From assembly GCA_014859225.1 (NCBI GenBank), contig JACUUP010000084.1, forward strand, positions 1 through 6,656: 6,656 bases of DNA. The letters are read 5' to 3'. Source of the DNA: Candidatus Aerophobota bacterium (GTDB lineage Bacteria > Aerophobota > Aerophobia > Aerophobales > B3-G15). A model generated the notes under the pieces. It was not told where the DNA came from. It worked only from the letters and a program-made list of their open reading frames with translations, and ran no database searches. Each line of letters begins with the position of its first letter. The first letter of the stretch is position 1. Positions 64 to 4,795 of this stretch are shown piece by piece. The position numbers were made by a program, and so were the translations under genes.

Positions 64-1035
64 TTAAAAAGGAGGAAAATCCTCATTGGCGATATTTTCA
101 GGCACTTTGCCATTTAAAGCGTCTACAACGCTTCTGGCTGCCATAACCCCCATATTCCTGTTTGCCTCCACGGTATAGGCTCCAAGATGAGGAGTAAGAA
201 CTACATTATCCAGCTCAAATAAGGGAAAATCCTTACCAGGAGGTTCCTCAGAAAAGCAATCTAAAGCCGCTCCCCCAATTTTCCTATTTTTGAGGGCATA
301 AAATAATGCTTGCTCATCTACCAGTTCCCCTCTTGCCGTATTGATTATTAAAGCACTATCCTTCATTAAACTAAGTGTTTTCTCGTTAATTAAATGTCTT
401 GTGGATGAGGTTAATGGAGTATGGAGTGTGATAATATCATTTTCTGTAAATATTTTTTCCAGATTAACTATTTTTACCTCATATTGCCTGCAAAAATCGT
501 GGTCCACCTGCAGGTCATAGGCAAACACCTCCATATTAAATCCTTTAGCTCGCTTTACTACATTTTTCCCAACTCTGCCAAGACCAATCACACCTAATTT
601 CTTGCCCCAGATCTCTGTTCCTATTAACCTTGGCCATTTTCCATTCCTTAAGGAACAGTCCGCAAGGACTACTTTCCTTGCCAGGGCTAACATTAGCGCA
701 AAAGTCAAATCAGCTACAGCTTGTTCATTTGCTCCCGGTGTTATAGTCACGTATATTCCTTTCCTAGCTGCAGCCTTTAAATCAATGTTGTCAATTCCAA
801 CTCCATGTTTTGCTATTATTTTTAGCCTCTTGCCTTTGTCAATTACTGCCTCCCCCACAGGGTCAACTCCAACTATAATGCCATCGTAATTTTCAATTAT
901 CTTAAGAAGCCTACCCCCGGTAAAAGGTTTCCCTTCTTTATTGATATCTACCTCTATTTTTCCCCTCTTTAGCACTTCAAACGGTTCCCTGCAAGCTTTA
1001 CCGAAGGAAGTAGCGGTTATTAAAACTTTTGCCAT
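64..1035 (-). CDS. D-isomer-specific 2-hydroxyacid dehydrogenase (phosphoglycerate-dehydrogenase-like, no ACT domain)
   Basis: The 323-residue protein should reduce a 2-keto acid to a D-2-hydroxy acid, or the reverse, with NAD(H) in the cytoplasm. An N-terminal catalytic half (about 1-100, with HGVGIDNID at 77-85) is followed by a Rossmann domain carrying GLGRVG at 151-156. Asp174 at the end of the next strand favours NAD over NADP. The catalytic triad of the family is complete: Arg235 in TARGE, Glu264 in SEEPP and His283 in TPHLG. The C-terminus rejoins the catalytic lobe and stops without the ACT or intervening domains of long SerA enzymes. The length is normal for the short form. The ATG is 20 bp after the kinase stop with a modest AAGAG six bases upstream; an earlier ATG at 1051-1049 is out of frame. 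Its place after a keto-acid aldolase and kinase suggests a catabolic substrate (a 2-keto sugar acid, glyoxylate or hydroxypyruvate) rather than serine synthesis. The substrate cannot be read from the sequence. Confidence 0.9.
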   Translation of the reverse strand: MAKVLITATSFGKACREPFEVLKRGKIEVDINKEGKPFTGGRLLKIIENYDGIIVGVDPVGEAVIDKGKRLKIIAKHGVGIDNIDLKAAARKGIYVTITPGANEQAVADLTFALMLALARKVVLADCSLRNGKWPRLIGTEIWGKKLGVIGLGRVGKNVVKRAKGFNMEVFAYDLQVDHDFCRQYEVKIVNLEKIFTENDIITLHTPLTSSTRHLINEKTLSLMKDSALIINTARGELVDEQALFYALKNRKIGGAALDCFSEEPPGKDFPLFELDNVVLTPHLGAYTVEANRNMGVMAARSVVDALNGKVPENIANEDFPPF

Positions 1036-1055: not shown

Positions 1056-2084
1056 TTATTCAAACAACTTACACCTTCTCGCTATATCTATTGCCCCGTT
1101 AATAGTGAGCATATCTATATCTTCTGTATTGCTTATTATTCTTAGAAGACCTTCTGGCCTTATTTTTTGAAGTAGATACTTGTATATTCTGCATCTTTTT
1201 TCGTTTTTTCCCATAATAACAAAATCCCTATCTTGAGAGAAGCCAAACCTGTCAAGTTGAGCTATAGTTCTCATATCCTCTACTGCTATTGTGGCCTCCA
1301 GAAAAAGCTTCCTCTCGTACCATTTTGTCCTCAGCAAGACATCTGCTAACCTTGGCATTAACAAGCCTCTGAGAAATCCACTCCTTGTGACCCAGTAATG
1401 GGCATATTCTATTATCTTGGTATCAAAATAAGTAAAATTGTCAAAATCGTCTGTTTTTCTGATTGATTTACCTATAACAGTCCTCTCAACAATTGCCTCA
1501 TATACCTGCCCTGATAAAGTAGTTACGCTACCAGCGATTTCTCCGCTGCTGTTAACACTCACACACATGGTGTGGGAAGTTAAAAAAAGGATAGTTAAAG
1601 GTAAATTGCACTCATGGGTTGAGAGAAAGCCTGCAACTTGTGTTTCCTCTCCTCGCATGAAGTCTACCCTTCCTGCGTTCATTAAATTTGAGGTATCAAT
1701 GTTACCAACGGTCTTCACTCCTCTTACAAAAACCATGGGTACATCCAGAGGAAATACGTTCTTATCCCTTACTTTCTTTACATTCCGGGCAAGCTCATCT
1801 ATGGATACCGGAGCTAACAGGTGAGGAATCTCCAGCAGTCCGATTTCCGAGGTAATCGCACCTGAGGTGATGGCAAAACTTACATCGGTCAATTTGATAT
1901 TAGCCTTCTTAAGAGCCTCTAAAAACACCTCACTCAGTTTTTCCTTTAAAATCCTATTGGAGCCTTCTATTGTTACATTTACAACTCCCACCTTTTCAGA
2001 AGCTTTTGCTATAATTTCTCTTTTTTCATCTACAAGGTAGACGCGTGAATTGGTGGTCCCACAATCAATAATGGCAAAATACAT
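1056..2084 (-). CDS. DgoK-family sugar-acid kinase (2-dehydro-3-deoxygalactonokinase-like), divergent
   Basis: This is a 342-residue ASKHA-fold kinase, likely to phosphorylate a 2-keto-3-deoxy aldonic acid with ATP. The N-terminal phosphate loop DCGTTNSR (7-14) corresponds to the D-x-G-S/T-T-N loop of DgoK. The most specific match is MRGEETQ at 143-149, a signature of the DgoK family (it also occurs in E. coli DgoK). SGAITSEIGLLEIPHL (74-89) matches the conserved AGMVGSxxG...PYL block. The usual PGTHCKW-like segment appears here as LTSHTMCV (168-175), and the C-terminal helices (about 261-274 and 325-337) line up with the family's end. It is longer than E. coli DgoK (about 290 residues) and differs at the PGT(H)xKW block, so specificity may have shifted. 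The ATG follows the aldolase stop after one base, with only a weak AGAG inside the aldolase gene, so translation is probably coupled. The family is fairly sure; the galactonate-specific name is not, so no symbol is given. Confidence 0.82.
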   Translation of the reverse strand: MYFAIIDCGTTNSRVYLVDEKREIIAKASEKVGVVNVTIEGSNRILKEKLSEVFLEALKKANIKLTDVSFAITSGAITSEIGLLEIPHLLAPVSIDELARNVKKVRDKNVFPLDVPMVFVRGVKTVGNIDTSNLMNAGRVDFMRGEETQVAGFLSTHECNLPLTILFLTSHTMCVSVNSSGEIAGSVTTLSGQVYEAIVERTVIGKSIRKTDDFDNFTYFDTKIIEYAHYWVTRSGFLRGLLMPRLADVLLRTKWYERKLFLEATIAVEDMRTIAQLDRFGFSQDRDFVIMGKNEKRCRIYKYLLQKIRPEGLLRIISNTEDIDMLTINGAIDIARRCKLFE

Positions 2085-2085
2085 C

Positions 2086-2982
2086 TTATTTTTTCTCTAA
2101 AACCCCAAGTTTTATTAACCTCTCCTTAAAGCTATTTCTCTCATTCGGTCCCATCTCAACAAAGGGGCTCCTTGGGTGTGTTTTAACGATTCCTCTTAGC
2201 TCAAGTGTTAGGTATACTGCGACAATAGTGGAACCTGCCGAATACATGACATCCCGTAAGAGATTCACTTTTTTCTGGAGCTCCCTACCTTTAATGATAT
2301 CACCCTTCACTCCCGCTTCAAATAGTTTAAGGCAAACTTCAGGGAAAGCATTCCCCAGGCCAGGGATAAAAGCCTGAGCACCAAGAGCAGCCGCAGGTAG
2401 CCACATCGCTTCTGTGCCAGGAACCACATCAAAATCCTCTGGAGCTTCCCTCAAATAATTGGTAAACAGTATTATATCAAAAGAACTATCCTTTATGCCC
2501 CTTACCCCACACTCAGCCAATTTTAAAATTAATCTCTCATCTATCCCATATCCTACAGTCTTTGGATTATTATATATATAAACAGGGATTTTGACAGATT
2601 TTACCAGTTCTGAGTAAAAGCGAAGTATACTTTCCTCAGTGTGATGATAATAGTAAGGAGGAACAGCAGCTATCCTCTCTGCTCCGAACTTCTCTGCATG
2701 CTGTGCAAGCTCTATAGAATCCCTCAGATTAGTTGTTCCTACATGGGCTATCAACGGTATTTTACCATCAACTTCTTTTGCTGTAATTTCAAAAACTTTT
2801 TTTCTCTCCTCCACATTCATCAACGGGCCGCTACCGTAGGACCCACAAACAAAAAGACCGTGCACTCTCTCTTTTAAAAAATTTACCAGTACCTTTTGTG
2901 CATCCTCATCTATATCTTCATTTTCCTTAAAAGCGGTTATTAGCGGAGGGATAGCTCCGTACATCTTTTTCATCTTCTCCAT
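2086..2982 (-). CDS. DHDPS/NAL-superfamily class I aldolase, 2-keto-3-deoxygluconate aldolase type
   Basis: The 298-residue TIM-barrel lyase should cleave or form a 2-keto acid through a Schiff base with pyruvate. The lysine is Lys164 in GIKDSS and the catalytic tyrosine is Tyr137 in VYIYNNP. The carboxylate-binding loop is GSYGSGP (47-53), not the GTTGE of DapA. Archaeal KDG aldolases have GTTGLGP in the same place, so the G-x-x-G-x-G-P pattern favours that branch. At the site of E. coli DapA Arg138, which binds aspartate semialdehyde, there is Thr142, which argues against lysine synthesis. A C-terminal HPRSPF (269-274) also resembles the YPRPP block of KDG aldolases. The first ATG is chosen because AAGGG, inside the end of the permease gene, lies 8 bases upstream; Met4 and Met7 are less likely starts. 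It follows the permease by 4 bp and precedes the kinase by 1 bp. Related alternatives are N-acetylneuraminate lyase or 4-hydroxy-2-oxoglutarate aldolase types. Confidence 0.88.
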   Translation of the reverse strand: MEKMKKMYGAIPPLITAFKENEDIDEDAQKVLVNFLKERVHGLFVCGSYGSGPLMNVEERKKVFEITAKEVDGKIPLIAHVGTTNLRDSIELAQHAEKFGAERIAAVPPYYYHHTEESILRFYSELVKSVKIPVYIYNNPKTVGYGIDERLILKLAECGVRGIKDSSFDIILFTNYLREAPEDFDVVPGTEAMWLPAAALGAQAFIPGLGNAFPEVCLKLFEAGVKGDIIKGRELQKKVNLLRDVMYSAGSTIVAVYLTLELRGIVKTHPRSPFVEMGPNERNSFKERLIKLGVLEKK

Positions 2983-2986
2983 CTTT

Positions 2987-3859
2987 TTATCCCTTCACAG
3001 CTCCAGCGACCAAACCCATTCTGACAAATTTCTGAATACCAAGATAAAGCACAGCTGGCATCATTCCGGCGAGAATAGCTGTGGCGGCAAGTCTACCGGG
3101 GTCTACGATTTCTCCACCCCATAAAAAGAAACCAATGTGAATAGGAAGAGTATAATTCTCTGTAGTATTTAACAGAACTGTGGAGAATATAACATCACCC
3201 CAGGAAAGAACGAAAGAAAAGATGGCTACAGCAGCAAGTCCCGGCGCTGCAAGAGGAAGTACTATCTTGAGGAGTGCCTGAAGTCTGGAACATCCATCAA
3301 CCATAGCCACCTCCTCCAGCTCCCTTGGAATGCCCAGAAAGTAGCCTCTCAACATGAAGGTTGCAAAAGGGACAGTGTAAGCTAGATGGACAACAGCCAG
3401 ACCGGTGAGTTTATCAAACATCCCTACATTACTCAAAATTATTGTCATCGGAACCATGAGAATAAAAGGAGGAAAAACATAGGCAAACAGGATATAGCAA
3501 GATATAAGGTTTTTTCCTTTATAAGAAAATCGCGACAAATTGTAGGCGGCAATAGTACTCACAAGCATGGTTAATCCCACTGCAATCCCGGCGACAAAGA
3601 GTGTGTTAATGAGGGGGGTCACAATAGTGGGTGAGATGCTAAGATAGGTACCCGCAACTTCTGCCATGGCTCCCCTTGGAACAACAAAGATATCTTTAAA
3701 ATTTTGCAAAGTGGGGTTTTTTGGTATGCCCATACTCCAGACTTCCACTTCTGGTGCAAAAGATGTTTTTATAATCCAGTATACGGGAATAAATATCCAG
3801 AGGAGGAGTAAAATTGAGAAGATAGCTAAAAGAGGTTTTCTAACATATCCTTTCTGCAA
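2987..3859 (-). CDS. ABC sugar transporter permease, MalG/UgpE type (TTG start)
   Basis: The 290-residue inner-membrane protein is one half of the import channel. About six membrane segments can be seen (near 9-30, 83-106, 118-142, 150-173, 203-226 and 258-276). The EAA loop that docks the ATPase is at about 180-206: ELEEVAMVDG, then KIVLPLAAPG, with Asp188 and Gly189 conserved. The C-terminus GLVAGAVKG is typical of MalG-type subunits. The start is TTG (plus CAA at 3857-3859): GGAG, inside the last codons of the upstream permease, lies nine bases away, and the next in-frame ATG (Met43) would remove the first membrane helix. The gap to the upstream permease is 6 bp and to the aldolase 4 bp. 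No ATP-binding subunit is present in the window. Confidence 0.94.
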   Translation of the reverse strand: MQKGYVRKPLLAIFSILLLLWIFIPVYWIIKTSFAPEVEVWSMGIPKNPTLQNFKDIFVVPRGAMAEVAGTYLSISPTIVTPLINTLFVAGIAVGLTMLVSTIAAYNLSRFSYKGKNLISCYILFAYVFPPFILMVPMTIILSNVGMFDKLTGLAVVHLAYTVPFATFMLRGYFLGIPRELEEVAMVDGCSRLQALLKIVLPLAAPGLAAVAIFSFVLSWGDVIFSTVLLNTTENYTLPIHIGFFLWGGEIVDPGRLAATAILAGMMPAVLYLGIQKFVRMGLVAGAVKG

Positions 3860-3865
3860 TTTGTC

Positions 3866-4717
3866 TTACTCCAGTTGTTTTACTGTAAAATAAATTAAGA
3901 TAGCAAAAATAGGAAGAATGCTAACAGAGTAAGCTGATGCCAGAGGATAGTTTAATCCCATTAAAAAAGCTATCTTATAAGTAGCCATGGGAATTGTAAG
4001 TGTTGCATCTACAGGTCCTCCTCCTGTCATCATTTTTGGAATGACAAAGTCGCCCATCGTCCACATCAGGGAAAGCCCACAAACAATCAAAAAAACTGGT
4101 TTTAATAAAGGTAAAGTTATAAATAATAACCTTTGCGAAGAAGAGGCTCCATCTATCTCAGCTGACTCATGCAATTCAGCGGGTATTGCCTGTAGTCCAG
4201 CTAAAAATCCCAGATAAAAAAAGGGCCAGCCACGCCAGATGTTTACCAAAATAATTGAGGGCATAGCATAGTGGTATCCAAGCCAATGAATGGGTTTTAG
4301 CCCCAATGTGCTCAGGATAAAATTTCCCACTCCTCTGTAATCGTAGACAAACCAGAATAGTACACAAGCAATAAATGGTGGAATAGCCCAGGGCAGGATT
4401 GAGAGTCCTCTTAGAATACCTCTTCCGCCAAATTTCTGATTAAGTAAAAGAGCCACTCCTAATCCAATTATTGCTTTGATGGCAACAGCTGGAAATGCAT
4501 AGACGAAGGTATTTTTTAAACTCACATAGAAGATGGGAGACCTAAAAATTCGAACAAAGTTGCTTAATCCTGTAAAAGTAGGAGGATGACCTATAGGCAT
4601 ACGATGGAAACTCATCCAGAGGGTAAAAAGAAGAGGAACAATCAATATTAAAGTCAGGACAGTCATAGCTGGAAAGATGTAGGTCCAATTTGAAACAATT
4701 TTCTTGACATTCACCAT
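3866..4717 (-). CDS. ABC sugar transporter permease, MalF/UgpA/LacF type
   Basis: The 283-residue inner-membrane subunit pairs with the MalG-type permease that follows. Membrane segments are visible near 12-35, 69-92, 104-125, 151-174, 200-221 and 258-278. The EAA loop is at about 181-207, with ELHESAEIDGASS (Asp189, Gly190) and ITLPLLKP. TGGGP at 231-235 is a common motif of the UgpA/LacF branch. The short N-terminus with one helix before the first periplasmic loop is normal for this branch, which lacks the extra helices of E. coli MalF. The ATG (plus 4715-4717) has only a weak AAAAAGAG seven bases upstream. A stronger AGAGGG lies about 15 bases upstream inside the 3' arm of a hairpin, so expression may be set lower than that of the binding protein. 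Confidence 0.94.
   Translation of the reverse strand: MVNVKKIVSNWTYIFPAMTVLTLILIVPLLFTLWMSFHRMPIGHPPTFTGLSNFVRIFRSPIFYVSLKNTFVYAFPAVAIKAIIGLGVALLLNQKFGGRGILRGLSILPWAIPPFIACVLFWFVYDYRGVGNFILSTLGLKPIHWLGYHYAMPSIILVNIWRGWPFFYLGFLAGLQAIPAELHESAEIDGASSSQRLLFITLPLLKPVFLIVCGLSLMWTMGDFVIPKMMTGGGPVDATLTIPMATYKIAFLMGLNYPLASAYSVSILPIFAILIYFTVKQLE
3869..3872 (-). promoter_or_regulatory. Shine-Dalgarno GGAG for the TTG-started permease
   Basis: GGAG overlaps the Glu-stop codons (GAG TAA) of the upstream permease and sits nine bases before the TTG at 3859. It decides this non-ATG start and implies that ribosomes finishing the first permease can re-initiate on the second. Confidence 0.7.
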
Positions 4718-4727
4718 TTAATTGCTC

Positions 4728-4795
4728 TTTTTCCCTCTGTGGCGTTACGAGGAATCTTGTATCTTCTCTTCAGATAATCGCCACAGAGGGAGAAA
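4728..4795 (-). promoter_or_regulatory. Intercistronic hairpin between the binding-protein and permease genes
   Basis: In the 112-bp gap, TCCCTCTGTGGCG (transcript sense, plus 4791-4779) is perfectly complementary to CGCCACAGAGGGA (plus 4744-4732), giving a 13-bp stem. After one mismatch three more A-U pairs extend it to 4728/4795. The loop is 34 nt and holds a small AUCU/AGAU hairpin (4772-4775 with 4761-4764). The 3' arm is followed by AAAAGAGC, not a U-run, so this is not a standard intrinsic terminator. Known parallels, such as the malE-malF gap, use such stems to protect or end the abundant binding-protein mRNA and so lower permease output. The stem also buries the SD-like AGAGGG ahead of the permease gene. 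Confidence 0.75.

Follow-up and report, generated by a model that had tools for sequence, protein, structure and literature searches.

A conserved pairing of a DHDPS-superfamily aldolase with a divergent DgoK-family kinase in a bacterial transport operon

Which compound is degraded by an aldolase of the DHDPS superfamily and a kinase of the 2-dehydro-3-deoxygalactonokinase (DgoK) family when their genes adjoin each other in an operon that contains no dehydratase gene? This question was raised by a sequence of 6656 bases (the window), which is an entire contig of a 1.8 Mb source genome that is 91% complete. The default names of the two gene products, galactonate kinase and dihydrodipicolinate synthase, are contradicted by the gene neighbourhood, and the pairing defines a function that is assayable with two proteins and a limited panel of compounds.

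The operon and its paired enzymes

The genes form a single minus-strand operon, in which the gene of a solute-binding protein is followed by those of two MalF/MalG-type permeases and then by the PF00701 aldolase and PF05035 kinase genes. The gene of a D-2-hydroxyacid dehydrogenase is the final one ahead of the contig end:

4830..6194, minus strand: extracellular solute-binding protein (Pfam SBP_bac_8, 2.4e-21)
3866..4717, minus strand: carbohydrate ABC permease, MalF/UgpA type (Pfam BPD_transp_1; UgpA/MalF-like)
2987..3859, minus strand: carbohydrate ABC permease, MalG type, TTG start (Pfam BPD_transp_1; MalG-like)
2086..2982, minus strand: DHDPS-superfamily (PF00701) class I pyruvate aldolase, 298 aa (Pfam 6.7e-53)
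1056..2084, minus strand: DgoK-family (PF05035) ASKHA kinase of a divergent subfamily, 342 aa (Pfam 5.5e-25)
64..1035, minus strand: D-2-hydroxyacid dehydrogenase, PGDH/glyoxylate-reductase-like, 323 aa (Pfam 2-Hacid_dh_C, 3.7e-61)

Gaps of 1-6 bases separate the genes of the permeases, the aldolase and the kinase, and the kinase start lies one base past the aldolase stop codon. Rfam and tRNA scans of the window were empty. The solute-binding protein matched solved sugar-binding proteins only weakly. Between its gene and the first permease gene, an inverted repeat was found (4728-4795; 17-nt arms, 94% complementary, 34-nt loop), which perhaps forms an mRNA hairpin that sets the ratio of solute-binding protein to permease expression.

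Pfam searches bore out the coordinates, strands and families that an earlier reading of the window, made from sequence alone (the sequence-only reading), had given for the aldolase and the kinase. The kinase scored 88.3 bits against PF05035 (curated cut-off 25; profile positions 1-179 of 281) and the aldolase 179.7 bits against PF00701. Based on the Pfam E-values (6.7e-53 for the aldolase, 5.5e-25 for the kinase) and on homologous pairs in seven other genomes, the possibility that either gene is a chance open reading frame was rejected.

Alignment with other sampled DgoKs confirmed the two kinase motifs that the sequence-only reading had singled out: MRGEETQ is retained (as DFMRGEETQ, along with DCGTT), and LTSHTMCV occupies the place of the PG[ST]HxK loop motif. 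At the position of the GE motif of other sampled DgoKs, the window kinase has SGQ. The window kinase and its seven closest relatives (see below) have in common an S or T for the G of the phosphate loop, a Q in place of the E that follows the next strand, and an RC motif. In these relatives the loop reads SSHTK, and Met replaces Lys (SHTM) in the window kinase alone. Lack of a loop lysine that nearly all sampled DgoKs keep counts against the explanation favoured below. The claim that the kinase is about 50 residues longer than Escherichia coli DgoK was numerically correct (342 versus 292 aa), but such length is ordinary. Sampled long-branch DgoKs measure approximately 310-345 aa and many of them adjoin classic dgoA/dgoD genes, as do Neorhizobium and Enterococcus DgoKs of approximately 330 aa, which lie beside dgoA-type and dgoD genes. 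Extra length was therefore rejected as a sign of novelty.

The predicted kinase structure (pLDDT 94) showed the DgoK fold over its full length, matching 3t69 with Z 29.7 (295 residues, rmsd 2.7) and the DgoK structure 3r1x with Z 26.6, while the next families reached Z 16. In the kinase tree, the eight proteins formed a single clade (support 100/100) on a long branch from other sampled DgoKs (stem, 1.75 changes per site). A chance match to DgoK was rejected by fold and tree. The window kinase is thus like DgoK in its family score, its 3t69 fold and its DxGTT and MRGEE motifs, and unlike DgoK in its separate clade, the change of G to S/T in PG[ST]HxK, the change of GE to GQ and the RC motif.

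In the window aldolase, presence of GSYGSGP and absence of the DapA arginine, both noticed earlier, were confirmed: T takes the position of E. coli DapA R138, whereas the equivalents of K161 and Y133 are retained as K164 and Y137. The Schiff-base lysine K164 is invariant in the aldolase clade, as are S48, Y49 and H114, and GSYGSG stands at the place of GxxGE in DapA, NanA, YagE and YjhH. The predicted structure (pLDDT 90) is a TIM barrel with YagE as its top fold match. Scores against NCBIfam equivalog models fell below the cut-offs for DapA (165.9 versus 206.15 bits), N-acetylneuraminate lyase (NAL; 163.2 versus 281 and 123.2 versus 382 bits), archaeal KD(P)G aldolase (KDGA; 153.5 versus 390 bits) and KdgD (81 versus 374 bits). 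In view of these scores, the earlier description 'KDG-aldolase-type' was too specific. A role as housekeeping DapA was not supported either, because of the T at the R138 position and the score below the DapA cut-off.

The eight aldolases also formed a single clade (support 100/100), apart from DapA, NanA, YagE/YjhH and an Agrobacterium pAt enzyme; the YagE/YjhH group and the window group were separated with support of 98/99 and 100/100, respectively. YagE and YjhH (KDG and 2-keto-3-deoxypentonate aldolases) share the TIM barrel, the Schiff-base Lys, the Tyr and the lack of the DapA Arg with the window aldolase. However, the latter shows 27% identity, has GSYGxG instead of G[ST]GGE and lacks a YagF/YjhG-type dehydratase partner. 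Superfamily and catalytic Lys/Tyr are common to DapA, NanA and the window aldolase, which nevertheless lies outside both in the tree and below both equivalog cut-offs. Consistent with the divergence proposed in the sequence-only reading, neither protein clustered with those known enzymes that could be placed (E. coli DgoK for the kinase; YagE/YjhH, NanA and DapA for the aldolase). Long branches elsewhere in both trees make deeper placements unsure and leave the two eight-member groups unaffected.

Linkage of the two subfamilies in other genomes

Among the matches listed, the four kinases nearest to that of the window (34-47% identity) each had a nearby aldolase that was 48-53% identical to the window aldolase. 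Profile searches in approximately 1,100 genomes added three loci (L106, L107 and L109) with the same aldolase neighbour. Kinase profile scores were bimodal, with members at 477-553 bits and other DgoKs at or below 240. The window and at least seven relatives thus place the pair in at least eight genomes of diverse bacteria, with an aldolase of the same clade (approximately 50% identity) near the kinase in 7/7 relatives. Because relatives were searched by kinase homology alone, presence of the aldolase is independent evidence. A scan of bacterial genomes with the kinase alignment returned at least 80 loci, and members are therefore at least as many as those counted. No match to the window kinase occurred in the other 16 genomes of the phylum examined, and in its own genome it was the sole PF05035 gene found.

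A PF00701 gene lay within 3 kb of the kinase in 7/7 members, as compared to 6/77 other DgoK loci among the matches listed, while a DgoA-type aldolase lay within this distance in 0/7 members and at 64/77 of the other loci; the comparison set is phylogenetically unbalanced and these figures are counts rather than probabilities. Up to 6 kb from the kinase, neither DgoD nor IlvD was matched in any member, whereas each of these was found at 14 of the 77 other listed loci. The classic galactonate (DeLey-Doudoroff) operon combines dgoD and dgoA with the kinase. Neither gene occurs in the window or, within the distances given, near the kinase of any of the seven relatives, and the aldolase partner of the window kinase comes from another superfamily. 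These results substantiated three proposals of the sequence-only reading, namely that the two genes belong together, that no dehydratase accompanies them and that the operon departs from the galactonate type.

Pairing of a DHDPS-type aldolase with a DgoK is not unheard of. In the pAt cluster of Agrobacterium C58 (ATU_RS26060-26085; L010:3953-5888), a DHDPS-family gene adjoins a DgoK gene and an ABC transporter, as in the window. There, however, the two genes are divergently oriented, their products fall into other clades, and an enolase-superfamily gene is present; the kinase and aldolase trees led to its rejection as an orthologous module. It is well supported that the window aldolase and kinase represent a conserved subfamily pair. 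A literature search of incomplete coverage found no description or laboratory test of this pair.

Transporters differed between members: an ABC system in the window and L107, a TRAP system in L106, L109 and L012, and an ascorbate-type PTS in L014. All three types fit import of a small polyhydroxy acid. Solved relatives of the window solute-binding protein and of the L106 TRAP solute-binding protein gave ligand clues that were not specific. A gene for a PF04199 putative cyclase/hydrolase was observed near the pair in 3/7 relatives (L012:11498-12427, L014:7035-7661 and L107:7099-7743) and within 6 kb at 1/77 other listed DgoK loci.

Candidate pathway and alternative explanations

The pair probably degrades a sugar acid via a route unlike that of the usual galactonate enzymes. 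A D-2-hydroxyacid dehydrogenase gene lies directly 3' of the kinase gene in the window, L106, L107 and L109, and the clusters of these three relatives also include a homologue of the nickel racemase LarA. Outside the member group, a DgoK at L041 is likewise accompanied by a dehydrogenase and LarA, and dehydrogenases adjoin DgoKs at L076 and, together with DgoA, L016, so that an association of dehydrogenase and kinase is also seen where the aldolase is of another kind. LarA enzymes racemise or epimerise 2-hydroxy acids at C2 (PMC7583248, PMC11770544). We tentatively favour a sugar-acid catabolic operon, built round the paired aldolase and kinase subfamilies, in which a 3-deoxyaldonic acid is oxidised to a 2-keto-3-deoxy acid and no aldonate is dehydrated. 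The ABC transporter would import a polyhydroxy acid deoxygenated at C3 (3-deoxyaldonic, metasaccharinate-like) or its precursor and, in relatives, LarA may set the C2 configuration ahead of oxidation. By analogy with the established chemistry of its family, the dehydrogenase would oxidise the C2 hydroxyl and thereby supply the 2-keto group. Since the acid would already lack its C3 hydroxyl, a dehydratase would not be needed. The kinase might then phosphorylate the terminal hydroxyl of the 2-keto-3-deoxy acid, and the aldolase, via its Lys164 Schiff base, could split the phosphorylated product to yield pyruvate plus an aldehyde phosphate; these two steps would resemble those of the lower Entner-Doudoroff branch. 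Substrate identity, the direction of the dehydrogenase reaction and the order of kinase before aldolase are all what we infer. If true, the dehydrogenase route would provide a dehydratase-free entry into a lower Entner-Doudoroff-type branch, useful for acids from alkaline or thermal sugar breakdown.

Several observations weaken this dehydrogenase route. No dehydrogenase or LarA gene was visible in the stretches read for four relatives (L011-L014; L011 and L013 lie close to contig ends), the window dehydrogenase belongs to a different subgroup than those of L106, L107 and L109 (31-36% identity), and the window has no LarA gene. The relatives' LarA proteins scored closest to malate racemase, below its cut-off, which counts against the favoured explanation, and the LarA of one relative reached the cut-off of no characterised group. 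A PF01081 aldolase gene on another contig of the source genome (C213), with no adjoining kinase in the stretch read, likewise counts against it. The more specific proposal of an undescribed 3-deoxyaldonic (metasaccharinate-like) pathway, in which the sugar-acid dehydratase gives way to a LarA epimerase plus a D-2-hydroxyacid dehydrogenase that feed a dedicated pair of new specificity, is rather unlikely.

The pair may instead act on an ordinary intermediate (KDG, KDGal or 2-keto-3-deoxypentonate) made elsewhere in the cell, in which case only the enzymes would be unusual and the dehydrogenase would be a reductase of glyoxylate or hydroxypyruvate formed later in the route. This is quite possible, if doubtful. 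By fold, the aldolase matches YagE best, the dehydrogenase is similar to glyoxylate reductase and to phosphoglycerate dehydrogenase (PGDH; 315 bits versus an equivalog cut-off of 454), PfkB-type sugar kinases occur at L011, and short-chain dehydrogenases (SDRs) of relatives score with gluconate-5-dehydrogenase and KduD models. Against it stand the position of the aldolase outside YagE/YjhH, its low scores with the KDGA and KdgD models and the absence of a dehydratase near any member. Distinctly less likely is that the aldolase acts first, as happens in the breakdown of sialic acid: a long 3-deoxy-2-ulosonic acid would be split into pyruvate and an aldose, with the kinase acting on a later product. 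NanA is a PF00701 member, and SiaP-type proteins are among the solved relatives of the L106 TRAP protein. However, the aldolase scored below the NAL cut-offs, the kinase model has a DgoK fold far above ROK kinases, and no NanE- or NanK-type gene was seen beside members. The T and M that the window kinase has instead of the G and K of the phosphate loop would fit a kinase-like protein that has lost catalysis and serves as a regulator or persists as a remnant, but this is very improbable: the remaining subfamily-invariant residues are kept, the loop Lys is retained in 7/7 relatives, the reading frame is intact and the predicted structure is confident.

The source genome carries three LarA homologues, all on other contigs, which counts against the favoured oxidative route. 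Continuation of the window operon into a LarA gene past the contig end gained no support; the homologue on contig C180 has its own dehydrogenase. At that locus (L121:3204-5637), the LarA gene adjoins a D-2-hydroxyacid dehydrogenase gene of the relatives' subgroup, and old-yellow-enzyme-like and aminotransferase-like genes are also present. Related gene combinations were observed beside DgoKs of other branches: L041:4912-10029 combines a non-member DgoK with a dehydrogenase, a proline-racemase-family gene, an RraA-type aldolase and LarA, and in Ruegeria (L076:7245-10508) dehydrogenase, RraA-like, DgoK and DgoA genes lie in a row.
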